From Bacilli bacterium (GTDB lineage Bacteria > Bacillota_I > Bacilli_A > ML615J-28 > CAG-698), in the NCBI GenBank assembly GCA_918272565.1, contig CAKJYW010000006.1, positions 1-64,000 of the forward strand: a stretch of DNA of 64,000 nucleotides. Reading direction: 5' to 3'. A model generated the notes under the pieces. The model was given only the letters and a program-made list of their open reading frames with translations. It made no database searches and was not told the DNA's origin. The position numbers and the translations under genes are program-made. Position 1 is the first letter of the stretch; each line of letters opens with the position of its first letter. Shown here one piece after another: positions 57,963-64,000 of this stretch.

Positions 57963-60120
57963 TTAGTGACTAACATTAGTTGTGAAGTTATCACCGGTAG
58001 GGTCAGTACCATATGTGTTACCTGTTGCATCAATTGAACAATTTGTAGATGCATGGTTACCATTTGCTACATATTTTTGAGTATATGTTGCGGAAGTTTT
58101 ATTCAATGTGATAGTTACTTCACCTAATGTACAATTGAATGTGTTACCTGTTGCAGTATATGTATTAGATTTTGTTACTCTATCAATTAATATTGGAAGA
58201 TATACTGTTCCAGTAAATGTATTGTTATTAACTTGTACATATTTATATGAGTCAGTATTGTTAGAAGGTCCAATTACAATTGCTACACCTGATACATTGT
58301 TGAAGCTATTGCCATTTGCTTCAACAACAGCCATATTAGCAGTTGCAGGTAAGTAACTTACCCAATTCAAATGAATTGCGTTTCCAACAATATTGCTGAA
58401 TGTGTTACCATTAAGCAATAGTTTTTCACCACTAGCACCTTTTGTCTTGTCATTTACATAGAAGGCATATGTAGCACTAATATCAGCAAAGATATTATCA
58501 ACTAACTCAAGATTATATAAGTTATCTAACCAGATCATTGAAGAAGCACCGAAGCCTTTTTGTGTTGTAAATGCGTTGTGACTAATATTGATATTATGAC
58601 TATAACTATTTGCTGATTCAGTAAAGTAAATGAATCCCTTACCTGTTGTAGTTACACTAACTTTATTGTTCATAAATGTGAATGCACCAAGGTTAGTTGC
58701 TGGAGCATTTGCTGTACCAGCTGTACCAGCAGTATTAACAATTTGAGATGCACCTACAAAATCAATACCCTTAAATGCTACACTTGACAATTCCTTAGCA
58801 ATTGTAATCTTACTTGTTAAGAATACATCTGGATAACGTTCAAGATCATCAAGTTCTTTATCACCATTTAATGACATGATAGTGATAGCTTTATCAATAC
58901 TTAAGTTTTCACTATACTCTCCAGGAGTAACTACTATTATACTTCCTGCAGGAGCAGCAGCTAATGCTTCAGTGATTGTGTCATAACCTTTCTTAGTAAT
59001 ACCAGTATATGAACCAACAACATAATAAATATCCATAGCATTAATTTTATCAATTAATGTGAATTGTATTGTATCATAATTAACTGCGCCTACAAACAAC
59101 TTATCGCTAGGGAATAAATCATTACTATTGCCATCATAATATAAGCAATCAGTCATGTCTAGTGTAACAGGACTAGTTGTGCCATTATTAGCTGAATTGT
59201 TCTTTGCATATAGAGTTTTAGGAACATCGTAGAATTGATTATATCTAGCCATCAAGTTAGCACCTGAACTAGAACGTTCTACATAAATGCAAGTTGCTAC
59301 TGTCTTGAATTCGTTAAAATTAATTTTAATTTCAGAATATACGTCAGTATTATTCATTGTTCCTAGATGAATTCCTTCACCGCTAACATTTTCAAACTTA
59401 TTATAACTAATAGATACTTTAGCAGTTGCAACAAATGGACTTAACCAATTAATCCACATTCCGTTTCCTGTTATATTCTTGAACATATTATATTCAAATA
59501 CTGAAGTTTCACCTGCCATACCCTTAGATGTATCATTAATATAGAATACATTTTCAGCAGTAATGTTTTCGAATGAATTTCCAGTCATTTCAATATCAAC
59601 ATCATTATCAAGTCTTATCATAGCACTTGCACCAAATCCAGCGCTTGTTGTGAATGTATTATCATTAATCTTGATATTATGACTATATGAGTGTTTTGCT
59701 TCTGTGAAATAAATAAATGCACCTGAAGCAGTAGTTACATTAACAGTATTATTAATGAATGTGAATGCACCAAGGTTAGTTTTTGTTGCAGAATTAGATG
59801 ATCCTGCAGTACCAGCAGTATTAACAACTTTAGATGCACCAGTAAAGTTGATACCCTTAATAGCTACATTTGTTAATTCCTTAGCTATTGTAATAGTACC
59901 AGTGTATGTAACCTCTAGATAACGATCAAGAGCATCTAGAGCTTTATCGCCATTCAATGACATTATTGTACAAGCTTTACTAATTGTGAAGCTTTCATTA
60001 TAAGTTCCTGGAAGAAGTACAACTATACCATTTGCAGGAACAGCAGCTATAGCTTCAGCAATTGTTGCATAACCTTGTTTAGTTACGCCAACATATGAGC
60101 CAACTACTACATATTCATCT
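57963..60120 (-). repeat. Tandem duplication of a beta-helix unit inside the surface protein gene
   Basis: Two copies of about 1.07 kb (59031-60120 and 57963-59030) encode matching segments: both run VVGSY, TIMSLNGDK, an NTAGTAG stretch followed by NLGAFTF, and YSHNI. DNA similarity is also visible, for example the AATGCACCAAGGTTAGTT stretch near 59765 and 58680. Differences are scattered, so the duplication is not recent. Confidence 0.8.
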
Positions 60121-63100
60121 TCTTCATTAATCTTTTCAAGTAGAGGAGGTTCATCGTACCAATCATCCATTGTCTCTTGCATGTTAGAGAACCACCAAGC
60201 TTCAGGTTGACCTAAATCAGAGTAGTTCTTATCAATGTCGAATAATCCTTCAGTACATGAATTAGTTGGTTTATCAACATAATAATCGCCAGCATTTAAT
60301 ACGATATTCTTGAATTTATTTTCATTGATGTGTACTTCAACATATTCTGGATGAGACATCTTTCCGCTTGCTGTTGAATTTCTTACACGAATTGCACCCC
60401 AAGTGTTCTTGCTTAGCATTCCACCATTGAATACATTATTCTTAATGTTAATAACTGCTTTGATTCCATCAACTTTTGCTTCACGCATATCAACACAAGT
60501 GTTATTAGCATTAATGAACATATTGTTTTCGATGCTATATGTACCATTACCAATATATCTAATCATAATAAATGATTGGTTAGTATTTTCAAATACGTTA
60601 TAAGAAATAGTTACATCACCATCAACAAGATCATATCCTCTAATAGTGTCATATACACCATTACCAGTAAATGTATTATTTTCAATATCAATATCTTTTG
60701 CTGTAGAATCAAATCTAATACCACGTAGAGCTTTTACAGTTGCAGTGTTATTAGTGAATGTGAATCCTGTAACAGGAACACCAAATCTTACAAATCCACT
60801 AATAGCATCACTATCGTGTACAACATTAGTAAATGTACAATTAGTAATTGTGATGTCTTTAACACCAGCTGTACCTGTTGTTGTGTCGATATATGCTTTT
60901 TCAATGAATGTAGCACCATCAATTGTTAATCTTTCAACGCCATCACTAATTATAATAGGCTTACTGAATGTTGTTCCAGTTGCTTGAATAGTCAAGCCAC
61001 TCTTAGAAATTGATAGAGATTCATCACATGTGAATGCACCTAACTCAATAACATCTTTTTCTTGAGCTGCAGCTAACGCAGCACTAACTGTAGCATATTG
61101 AGTCTCACCAATAAATACATCTGTTGTAACAACATTGATATTTAGAGTTGCTGCAAATGCACCACTATCTTGTGCTGTTGCAGTGATTACGCATGTACCA
61201 GCCTTAAGAGCTTGAGCTTCACCAGTGTCTTCATTGATTGTCATAACTGTAGAATCAGATGAACTCCACTTAATTGGTGAATTAGAATCAATGATAGATT
61301 CATCAGCACGCTTTGTTGCAACATCAACAGAGAAGTTTCTTAACTTACCAGCAGTAATTAATCCAGATCCCTTAATAGTCATTCCTTCAACATTATCATA
61401 AACTTTTAGTTTATATTCAGTTGAGTAGTTAGGATTAGTAACTGATGTAGCAGTAACTGTTACATTTCCACCTTTAAGTGCTGTTAATTTATTGTTCTTA
61501 TCAACACTAACAATTCCTGGCTCACTAAATGACCAAGTAACTTTAGTATTTGCTCCTTCAGGAGTAGCAGTAATAGTTAATGTTTCAGTATCAGCAATAT
61601 GTAATGTAGCACTATTATTGCTAATAGCAATTGAAGTTGTCTTAGGGAATACTGTTAGTGTGTAAGAAGCACTAACGCCACCAGCAGTAGCACTAATTAC
61701 AGTTGTACCCATTGATTTAGCTACAAGCTTGCCTTCTTCAAAGGCAGCTACAGCCTCGTTACTACTTGACCAAACGATGTTAGAAACATTTGCGTTTGCA
61801 GGAACAACCTTAGCAACTAAAGTTGATGTTTGTTCAAGTTCAAGTAATGCACTTTCACCATCAATTTCAATAGCTGTTGGAAGGATTTCATCCCAAATAG
61901 CAAGTAATGTAACATTACGTTCTACTTCCCAAATCAAATAATCAAATCTTTCTCCATTTTCTGCCCAACCCATGAATTGGTATCCATCTCTAGTTGGGAA
62001 TGGAAGTGAGAAGCTTTGACCAAATACAACATTGAATGTCTTAGTTCCAGCTAAAACTCCACCGTTTGCGTCAACTGTTACAGTGTAAGTTGCTGCAGTC
62101 CATTTAGCCTCAATTGTTAAATTAGACTTTCTATTCCATGTTGTTTCAGTATACTTCTTATCTCCTTCAAACCAGCCATCAAAACTATGACCAGCTCTCT
62201 TTGGAGTTGGAAGTGTGAATGTCTCACCATATTCAAGTTCTAACTTAGTAACATCAGCTTGTCCGCCACCAAGGTTTAGAGTAAGAGTATATTTAGTAAC
62301 ACTCCATTTTGCCTTTAGTGTTAAGTCTGATGTTAGTTCAAACTTAGTTGCAGTAAACTTTTCTTCACCATTGAACCAACCTTCAAAAGTATAATTTTCT
62401 TTTGTTGGAGTTGGTAAAGATAAAGATCCACCATAAGAAACACTTAGAGTTGTTTGAGATAATGCATCTCCACCATTAACATCTAATGTTACAGTGTACT
62501 TATTAGCTTCAAAACTTGCTTTGATAGTAGTATCTTGTTTCTTACTCCAAGCGCCACTTTCAATCTTTTCAGTTCCAATAAACCAACCTAAGAACTTATA
62601 TCCAGTCTTAGTTAGTGTAGGAAGAGTAAGTGTATCGCCAACTCTTAATTCAAAACTAGATTGAGTTAGTCCATCACCACCATTAGCATCTAATGTAACA
62701 TTAAATACTGCTTTTTCCCATTTAGCTGTTACTGATAGATTAGAAGTTAATTCATATTTTCCATCTTCAACTTTTAATGTTCCATTATACCAACCTAAGA
62801 AATCATATTTATCTTTTGTTGGAATAGGAAGAGTGTAATTTTCACCATATTTAACATCGATAGATGTTTCAGCAAGTGTTCCACCATCAGGATTTAAACT
62901 GATTTTATAAAGTTGTGCTTCCCACTTAGCTTTTAAAGTCATATCTGAAGCAGTAGTGTATTTTCCATCTTCTACTTTTTCTTCTCCCTTAAACCATCCT
63001 AAGAATGTGTATCCTTTCTTAGTAGGTCTAGGTAGATAAACTGTATCTCCAAATGCAACATTTAATTCTGTCTTGCCTTCTCCACCATCTAGATCAAAAG

Positions 63101-63548
63101 TAATAGTATATACTTTTGCTCTCCAGTGAGCAGTCAATGTTTGATTTGCAGTAACAGAATAAGCACCATCTTCAAATCTGTCTTCTCCAAGGAACCAGCC
63201 AACAAAGTCGTATCCTTCTTTAGTAGGATTTTCAACAGCAACTGTTCCGCCTTCATATGAAATAACATTGCTTCTAACAACAAAGTCTTCGCCTTCTTTA
63301 ACTTTGAAGCTAGTAACAGGCATTGATCCACCATCAAGGTTTAATGTGATAGTGTAATAAGTAGCATCAGGATCTACTTCAGTATGTCCAGGGTCTTCTT
63401 CACCTGGTTCTACTGCACTTGAGCTAGTGCCTTCATGAGGATCTTCTTCATCAGGTGTCTTGTTTGCTTCACACGAAGCAACAAAGAACAATGAGAAAAT
63501 CATCAAAAAGACCATTAACGTTTTCCACAAAAAACTACCTTTTTTCAA
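57963..63548 (-). CDS. Giant surface lipoprotein: InlB-type repeats, Ig-like domains, beta-helix units
   Basis: 1861 residues starting at TTG 63548, with AAGGAGG 8 bases before; the in-frame ATG at 63590 has no ribosome binding site and lies in the terminator T run. The signal peptide ends at lipobox VASC near residue 26. Residues about 60-554 hold seven repeats of about 70 residues (Listeria-Bacteroides/InlB beta-grasp type, each with a GW(F/Y) or GWA core). Residues about 555-805 hold three BIG2-type Ig-like domains. Then come three right-handed beta-helix units (about 806-1142, 1143-1505 and 1506-1861), of which the last two are close copies. No enzymatic site is evident; adhesion or polysaccharide binding is an inference. 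Confidence 0.85.
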   Translation of the reverse strand: MKKGSFLWKTLMVFLMIFSLFFVASCEANKTPDEEDPHEGTSSSAVEPGEEDPGHTEVDPDATYYTITLNLDGGSMPVTSFKVKEGEDFVVRSNVISYEGGTVAVENPTKEGYDFVGWFLGEDRFEDGAYSVTANQTLTAHWRAKVYTITFDLDGGEGKTELNVAFGDTVYLPRPTKKGYTFLGWFKGEEKVEDGKYTTASDMTLKAKWEAQLYKISLNPDGGTLAETSIDVKYGENYTLPIPTKDKYDFLGWYNGTLKVEDGKYELTSNLSVTAKWEKAVFNVTLDANGGDGLTQSSFELRVGDTLTLPTLTKTGYKFLGWFIGTEKIESGAWSKKQDTTIKASFEANKYTVTLDVNGGDALSQTTLSVSYGGSLSLPTPTKENYTFEGWFNGEEKFTATKFELTSDLTLKAKWSVTKYTLTLNLGGGQADVTKLELEYGETFTLPTPKRAGHSFDGWFEGDKKYTETTWNRKSNLTIEAKWTAATYTVTVDANGGVLAGTKTFNVVFGQSFSLPFPTRDGYQFMGWAENGERFDYLIWEVERNVTLLAIWDEILPTAIEIDGESALLELEQTSTLVAKVVPANANVSNIVWSSSNEAVAAFEEGKLVAKSMGTTVISATAGGVSASYTLTVFPKTTSIAISNNSATLHIADTETLTITATPEGANTKVTWSFSEPGIVSVDKNNKLTALKGGNVTVTATSVTNPNYSTEYKLKVYDNVEGMTIKGSGLITAGKLRNFSVDVATKRADESIIDSNSPIKWSSSDSTVMTINEDTGEAQALKAGTCVITATAQDSGAFAATLNINVVTTDVFIGETQYATVSAALAAAQEKDVIELGAFTCDESLSISKSGLTIQATGTTFSKPIIISDGVERLTIDGATFIEKAYIDTTTGTAGVKDITITNCTFTNVVHDSDAISGFVRFGVPVTGFTFTNNTATVKALRGIRFDSTAKDIDIENNTFTGNGVYDTIRGYDLVDGDVTISYNVFENTNQSFIMIRYIGNGTYSIENNMFINANNTCVDMREAKVDGIKAVINIKNNVFNGGMLSKNTWGAIRVRNSTASGKMSHPEYVEVHINENKFKNIVLNAGDYYVDKPTNSCTEGLFDIDKNYSDLGQPEAWWFSNMQETMDDWYDEPPLLEKINEEDEYVVVGSYVGVTKQGYATIAEAIAAVPANGIVVLLPGTYNESFTISKACTIMSLNGDKALDALDRYLEVTYTGTITIAKELTNVAIKGINFTGASKVVNTAGTAGSSNSATKTNLGAFTFINNTVNVTTASGAFIYFTEAKHSYSHNIKINDNTFTTSAGFGASAMIRLDNDVDIEMTGNSFENITAENVFYINDTSKGMAGETSVFEYNMFKNITGNGMWINWLSPFVATAKVSISYNKFENVSGEGIHLGTMNNTDVYSEIKINFNEFKTVATCIYVERSSSGANLMARYNQFYDVPKTLYAKNNSANNGTTSPVTLDMTDCLYYDGNSNDLFPSDKLFVGAVNYDTIQFTLIDKINAMDIYYVVGSYTGITKKGYDTITEALAAAPAGSIIVVTPGEYSENLSIDKAITIMSLNGDKELDDLERYPDVFLTSKITIAKELSSVAFKGIDFVGASQIVNTAGTAGTANAPATNLGAFTFMNNKVSVTTTGKGFIYFTESANSYSHNINISHNAFTTQKGFGASSMIWLDNLYNLELVDNIFADISATYAFYVNDKTKGASGEKLLLNGNTFSNIVGNAIHLNWVSYLPATANMAVVEANGNSFNNVSGVAIVIGPSNNTDSYKYVQVNNNTFTGTVYLPILIDRVTKSNTYTATGNTFNCTLGEVTITLNKTSATYTQKYVANGNHASTNCSIDATGNTYGTDPTGDNFTTNVSH

Positions 63549-63589
63549 TTTGATTTTCCTCCTTATAGTAGCTAATTGTAATACAACCA

Positions 63590-63622
63590 TAAAAAAATCT
63601 AGGTAATGGTGTTACCTAGATT
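63590..63622 (-). terminator. Leader terminator upstream of the giant surface protein gene
   Basis: On the minus strand AATCTAGGTAA (63622-63612) pairs perfectly with TTACCTAGATT (63606-63596) around a 5-base loop, followed by T7. It lies between the promoter and the start codon, so it can only act by attenuating this gene's own transcript. Confidence 0.85.
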
Positions 63623-63666
63623 AAATTAATAGGTGCATAACACCATCAATCTTTAAATAGACTGAT
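63606..63666 (-). promoter_or_regulatory. Candidate antiterminator and leader hairpins
   Basis: Nine bases ATGGTGTTA (63646-63638) are perfectly complementary to TAACACCAT (63614-63606), which spans the inner stem and loop of the terminator, so pairing would disrupt it. The upstream strand can alternatively form GGTG-TTATG-CACC (a small hairpin) and an 8-bp hairpin ATCAGTCT/AGATTGAT (63666-63645). These mutually exclusive folds are typical of riboswitch or protein-dependent attenuators; the ligand is unknown and no known class (for example T-box) is recognised. Confidence 0.6.
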
Positions 63667-63686
63667 TTTAAGTTATATACACTATT

Positions 63687-63715
63687 ATTATATCATTGTG
63701 TAAGCGCTTTTTCAA
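63687..63715 (-). promoter_or_regulatory. Promoter of the giant surface protein gene, with cre-like sequence
   Basis: TTGAAA (63715-63710), 17-base spacer and TATAAT (63692-63687) on the minus strand. The spacer contains AGCGCTTACA, resembling a catabolite-responsive element (CcpA site). Confidence 0.75.
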
Positions 63716-63728
63716 CAACAATTTCCTC

Positions 63729-64000
63729 TTATTTTAAAGCATCAACTATTGAAGAAAATTCGAAAGTTTTAGTCTCTCCTAAGTAAGTTACTTCGACTTT
63801 ATATCTAACAACTGTCTCTTCACCAGGATGGTTGATGATATGTCCTTCGTTATCTAAAATCGTAGGTGAAAGGCTTGTCCATTTGAAAGTGACATCTTTT
63901 AATACAGTCTTGCAATAATAGAATATTTCAACCATATTTAAGAATTCTTCCCAACGATTGTTATTTCTCATTACGCAAGGACAGTCCTTACCACTAAAGT
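63729..64000 (-). CDS. C-terminal fragment of a surface or secreted protein (5' part outside window)
   Basis: The frame is open to the right edge, beyond an internal ATG at 63971, reading FSGKDCPCVMRNNNRWEEF and ending SSIVDALK. The last 60 residues (TVLKDVTFKWTSLSPTIL, RYKVEVTYLGETKTFEF) resemble a bacterial Ig-like domain. Codons upstream of the ATG show no stop, so the ATG is probably internal. It ends just before the promoter of the giant gene. Family and function cannot be set from the fragment. Confidence 0.5.
   Translation of the reverse strand, partial: FSGKDCPCVMRNNNRWEEFLNMVEIFYYCKTVLKDVTFKWTSLSPTILDNEGHIINHPGEETVVRYKVEVTYLGETKTFEFSSIVDALK

Follow-up and report, generated by a model that had tools for sequence, protein, structure and literature searches.

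Putative terminator-gated leader upstream of a gut-type Acholeplasmatales gene for a giant surface lipoprotein

Main finding

The combination of a consensus-like promoter, a short leader and an intrinsic terminator precedes the gene of a giant surface lipoprotein in a gut-type Acholeplasmatales bacterium, and no good promoter follows the terminator. With moderate confidence, we explain this arrangement by terminator-gated expression of the lipoprotein gene behind a probably sugar-repressed promoter, with a read-through possibly raised by antiterminator pairing.

According to this proposal, the gene would be transcribed from the promoter at 63715-63687 and probably repressed at a cre-like site in its spacer. 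The polymerase would copy about 90 nt of leader before reaching the terminator ahead of the ribosome-binding site, where most transcripts would by default end as a short RNA, so that only the read-through fraction would yield the full mRNA. During synthesis of the terminator, an upstream strand could pair with its loop and upper stem, and anything stabilising this pairing or disrupting the 5' hairpin might raise the read-through. Controlled antitermination at the leader is possible; regulated switching, and the signal that would drive it, are speculative.

Genomic setting

The window, i.e. the whole 64-kb stretch that was analysed, belongs to contig C6 of a 1.69-Mb draft genome. On its minus strand, the leader lies between two lipoprotein genes. 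The upstream gene, whose 3' end occupies 63729..64000 (stop at 63729) and which extends beyond the window (L056:230-2329), encodes an N-acetylmuramoyl-L-alanine amidase lipoprotein of 699 aa with aBig_2 and Amidase_2 domains. A tandem pair of such amidase lipoprotein genes (L056:230-4203) is found upstream and is kept in congeners.

The downstream gene (57963..63548, minus strand) starts with TTG at 63548, preceded by the Shine-Dalgarno sequence AAGGAGG (63558..63564). Its product of 1861 aa carries a signal peptide with the lipobox VASC, seven Listeria-Bacteroides repeats and three Big_2 domains, while its repeat-rich C-terminal half has no clear family. The name of adhesin given to this protein in the original prediction, which was made from the sequence of the window, finds no support in this composition. 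In the congeners G001 and G003, an mscL-like gene replaces the giant gene behind the amidase orthologue.

Promoter and cre-like operator

The sigma-70-type promoter (63687..63715, minus strand) combines a TTGAAA -35 box at 63715-63710 and a TATAAT -10 box at 63692-63687, separated by a spacer of 17 nt. With 11 of 12 consensus matches and an extended -10 element (TGn, here TGA), it is one of five sites in the window reaching at least 11/12 with TGn. Judging from the -10 box, transcription would start at about 63680.

A cre-like operator of the LacI/CcpA type, TGTAAGCGCTTTTT, lies in the promoter spacer (63699..63712, plus strand). It matches at 13 of 14 positions and is the sole match of that quality in the window, both strands having been scanned. 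This likely second control point was overlooked in the original prediction. The genome encodes a CcpA-like protein of the LacI family, scoring 257 bits, under the ccpA equivalog cut-off of 442, and repression of the promoter by a CcpA/LacI-type protein at the predicted site is probable.

The congener G002 provides a comparison for the promoter only, as its contig (L112) stops at the -10 box and so does not reach the leader. Behind an orthologous amidase gene (82% identical across query residues 140-698), it carries TTGAAT-17-TATAAT at the equivalent place, and the spacer again holds a 13/14 cre-like site (L112:1-30), in a different register and nearer to the -10 box. The recurrence of both position and cre-like site supports a real, probably sugar-controlled promoter and, together with the quality of the promoter itself, favours terminator-gated expression. 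An invertible, phase-variable promoter was also considered and dropped because perfect inverted repeats on either side of the promoter are lacking; the flanking pair that was found is 76% complementary over 17 nt.

Terminator, complementary strand and predicted folding

The intrinsic terminator (63591..63622, minus strand) is made of a stem of 11 perfect pairs (63622-63612 with 63606-63596), a 5-nt loop, CACCA, and a run of seven T (63597-63591). It would end about 90 nt after the inferred start, within a leader of about 130 nt to the TTG codon. Promoter, leader, terminator and start codon are present as originally described, all on the minus strand. With just three G-C pairs in its stem, the terminator may simply be leaky.

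The exact 9-nt complement to the inner stem and loop of the terminator was also found as described (63646-63638 with 63606-63614). It covers the loop and the upper stem, and extends to 12 pairs, including three G-U, between 63648-63637 and 63615-63604, which defines a candidate antiterminator strand at 63637..63648 (minus strand; partner 63604-63615). By chance, dinucleotide shuffles reach nine or more Watson-Crick pairs in 0.9% of cases and random segments of the window in 1.2%; for 12 or more pairs with G-U, the figure is 0.26% with both kinds of control. In a comparison of 24 terminator-like sites from about 110 kb of the genome, the leader ranks first by length of the Watson-Crick complement and by duplex energy (-17.3 kcal/mol), and one other terminator equals it at 12 pairs with G-U. 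The complementarity is uncommon, not extraordinary: its low chance level and its first rank by Watson-Crick length and duplex energy favour the gated reading, and a coincidence of about 1% is not rare when 64 kb are searched for unusual features.

Upstream of this strand, folding predicts a 5' hairpin (63634..63681, minus strand; -14.3 kcal/mol alone in the minimum-energy fold) that can hold the antiterminator strand and may act as an anti-antiterminator, in line with the proposal that a hairpin could sequester it. The fold combining this hairpin and the terminator reaches -26.3 kcal/mol (z = -5.4), for much of which the terminator itself accounts. When the antiterminator is enforced, the same RNA is predicted at -15.2 kcal/mol, and a longer read-through RNA at -33.8 versus -42.4 kcal/mol. 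The terminator state is therefore ahead by 9-11 kcal/mol, a deficit that the antiterminator could overcome only with strong external support. Its pairs are predicted to form transiently, with a probability of 43-65% when 74-80 nt have been transcribed, which favours gating, and to be displaced by the terminator from 82 nt onwards. This late loss and the preference for the terminator make termination the default, and regulated antitermination would need an unseen helper. Of the attenuator layout originally put forward, the anatomy stands, with no better promoter past the terminator; the switching is speculative, the predicted energies favouring the terminator. Sequestration of the Shine-Dalgarno sequence was rejected as a means of control since folding does not predict it, its paired probability being 0.1-0.4.

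These same results feed the main competing explanation, less probable than gating and still a serious contender: an ordinary, unregulated terminator would end the amidase operon and damp the giant gene by a fixed, leaky read-through, the complementarity being a coincidence. No other terminator is found between the amidase stop at 63729 and position 63622, the predicted energies strongly favour termination, a complementarity at the level of about 1% departs only weakly from chance, and another genomic terminator has a 12-pair match with G-U as well. However, an operon terminator would be oddly placed beyond a strong promoter that follows the amidase stop, and the first rank of the leader among the 24 sites speaks against coincidence.

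Search for a second promoter

In the stretch that separates the terminator from AAGGAGG, no promoter-like site exceeds 8/12, and the top one has a 15-nt spacer and lacks an extended -10 element. When 29 positions of the window are scanned at random, 57% of the scans match or beat this score. With no credible promoter past the terminator, expression of the gene from the leader promoter requires terminator read-through, which again favours gating.

The same region bears on a free-standing gene for a small RNA of about 90 nt, with the lipoprotein gene expressed from an unrecognised promoter. Promoter, compact fold and terminator would suffice for such a gene, and a candidate -10 box, TACAAT (5/6), is present at 63580-63575, between the terminator and the lipoprotein gene. 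We consider this explanation rather unlikely: the best downstream promoter is typical of random sequence, and no RNA homologue appears in relatives by covariance model or in Rfam.

Searches for related leaders

The leader was compared by blastn with 60 relatives, 28 family genomes and 43 order genomes, which yielded no homologue. Apart from the leader itself, the matches are weak and cover short stretches (best E 3e-6), and those inspected correspond to coding or unrelated AT-rich sequence. A single-sequence covariance model run on the 43 order genomes recovered the leader itself and chance-level matches (E 0.06 or worse). No second copy of the leader was found in the same genome, a GTDB scan with the lipoprotein gave no closer homologue carrying it, and the lipoprotein paralogues of this genome and its relatives have different upstream regions. 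Among the genomes searched, the leader is thus seen in one only, with no second sequence to show covariation.

In Rfam 15, searched at curated and loose thresholds, no family exceeds its gathering cut-off in the window; near the leader, the loose thresholds return chance-level matches (E 1-5). The original prediction recognised no known class, and this agrees with the Rfam result. The riboswitch label that it attached to the leader is left without support, and no evidence was obtained for control by a ligand or an RNA-binding protein. A resemblance of GAUGGUGUU to the fluoride riboswitch was considered and dropped for want of an Rfam match.

A lineage-specific, undescribed class of RNA switch, whose loop-invading antiterminator would be stabilised by a metabolite or an RNA-binding protein to give the lipoprotein gene double control together with the cre promoter, appears improbable. 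Translation-coupled attenuation by a leader peptide (M-M-V-L-C-T-Y-stop, from TTG/ATG near 63648 or 63645) is the least plausible explanation by far and was dropped: this short frame overlaps the antiterminator strand, where a ribosome would alter the fold, but it has no Shine-Dalgarno sequence ahead, no run of a single amino acid and no homologue showing conservation.

Terminator-gated expression remains our preferred reading, weakened by the favoured terminator, the lack of a leader homologue and of an Rfam match, the coincidence level of about 1% and the few G-C pairs of the stem.

Poly-G promoter spacers of surface-protein genes

On another aspect, poly-G runs within promoter spacers of surface-protein genes in this family may outweigh the leader in value. 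In the same genome, a paralogous surface protein has a run of ten G directly before a -10 box (L041:718-737). Runs of at least eight G directly before TATNAT (GGGGGGGGTATNAT) occur at seven sites in 4 of the 60 relatives (L041:718-737 in L160/L041, L163, L125/L161, L158, L154/L162, L159 and L157), and the reversed control pattern gave none. At five of the seven sites, a TTGACA/TTGACT -35 box precedes the -10 box at a spacing of 15-18 nt, and the run lies inside this spacer; L160/L041 and L161/L125 have no such -35 box at that spacing.

Four of the seven sites precede a short open frame, followed by a secreted surface protein in L160, L161 and L162; the L159 stretch ends inside the short frame. 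These frames of 36-41 aa (MEKKKYEKPEVEVI..., MKKEYEKPIVMIEKF..., MKKEFKLPQIELVL...; L041:820-945, L125:1623-1736 and L162) lie between the poly-G promoters and the secreted surface-protein genes, and the one searched in NCBIfam had no match. At L041:751-780, a predicted terminator of 13 pairs, G-U included, stands just before the ribosome-binding site of the short frame, with both candidate promoters upstream of it, giving the genome a second putative attenuator-like layout.

These candidate promoters have the layout of promoters switched by homopolymer slippage, i.e. phase-variable ones. An ON/OFF switch by replication slippage is reported for Bifidobacterium pili (PMC9187656).

Comparison with known systems

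The putative control point at the promoter resembles CcpA/cre catabolite control, with a 13/14 cre-like site over the promoter and a CcpA-like protein encoded in the genome. It differs in that the operator is a predicted one and that the LacI-family protein scores below the ccpA equivalog cut-off.

Attenuators built on alternative hairpins are well known in Bacillota, such as those of the pyr operon with PyrR, the T-box and the purine-riboswitch type. The leader shares with them the order of 5' hairpin, antiterminator, terminator and gene, and its predicted pairings are likewise mutually exclusive. In contrast, it has no recognisable binding element of these classes and no Rfam match, and its candidate antiterminator targets the loop and upper stem of the terminator, not the base of the 5' arm. 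This antiterminator is also predicted to be weaker than the terminator by 9-11 kcal/mol.

Another likeness is offered by Streptococcus agalactiae, where RNA-seq identified 11 attenuation leaders outside Rfam, the gbs1262 leader being shown in detail and backed by covariation (PMC4448216). Both cases share a long 5' UTR in which a terminator precedes the gene, and neither can be assigned to a known class, whereas the present leader is known from sequence alone. The leader falls within an established type of element and can be set beside the unclassified leaders of S. agalactiae (PMC4448216). Should the gate prove real, expression of one of the largest surface lipoproteins of a gut Acholeplasmatales bacterium would be controlled during elongation as well as at initiation; this would extend an established principle to a new case, not introduce another.
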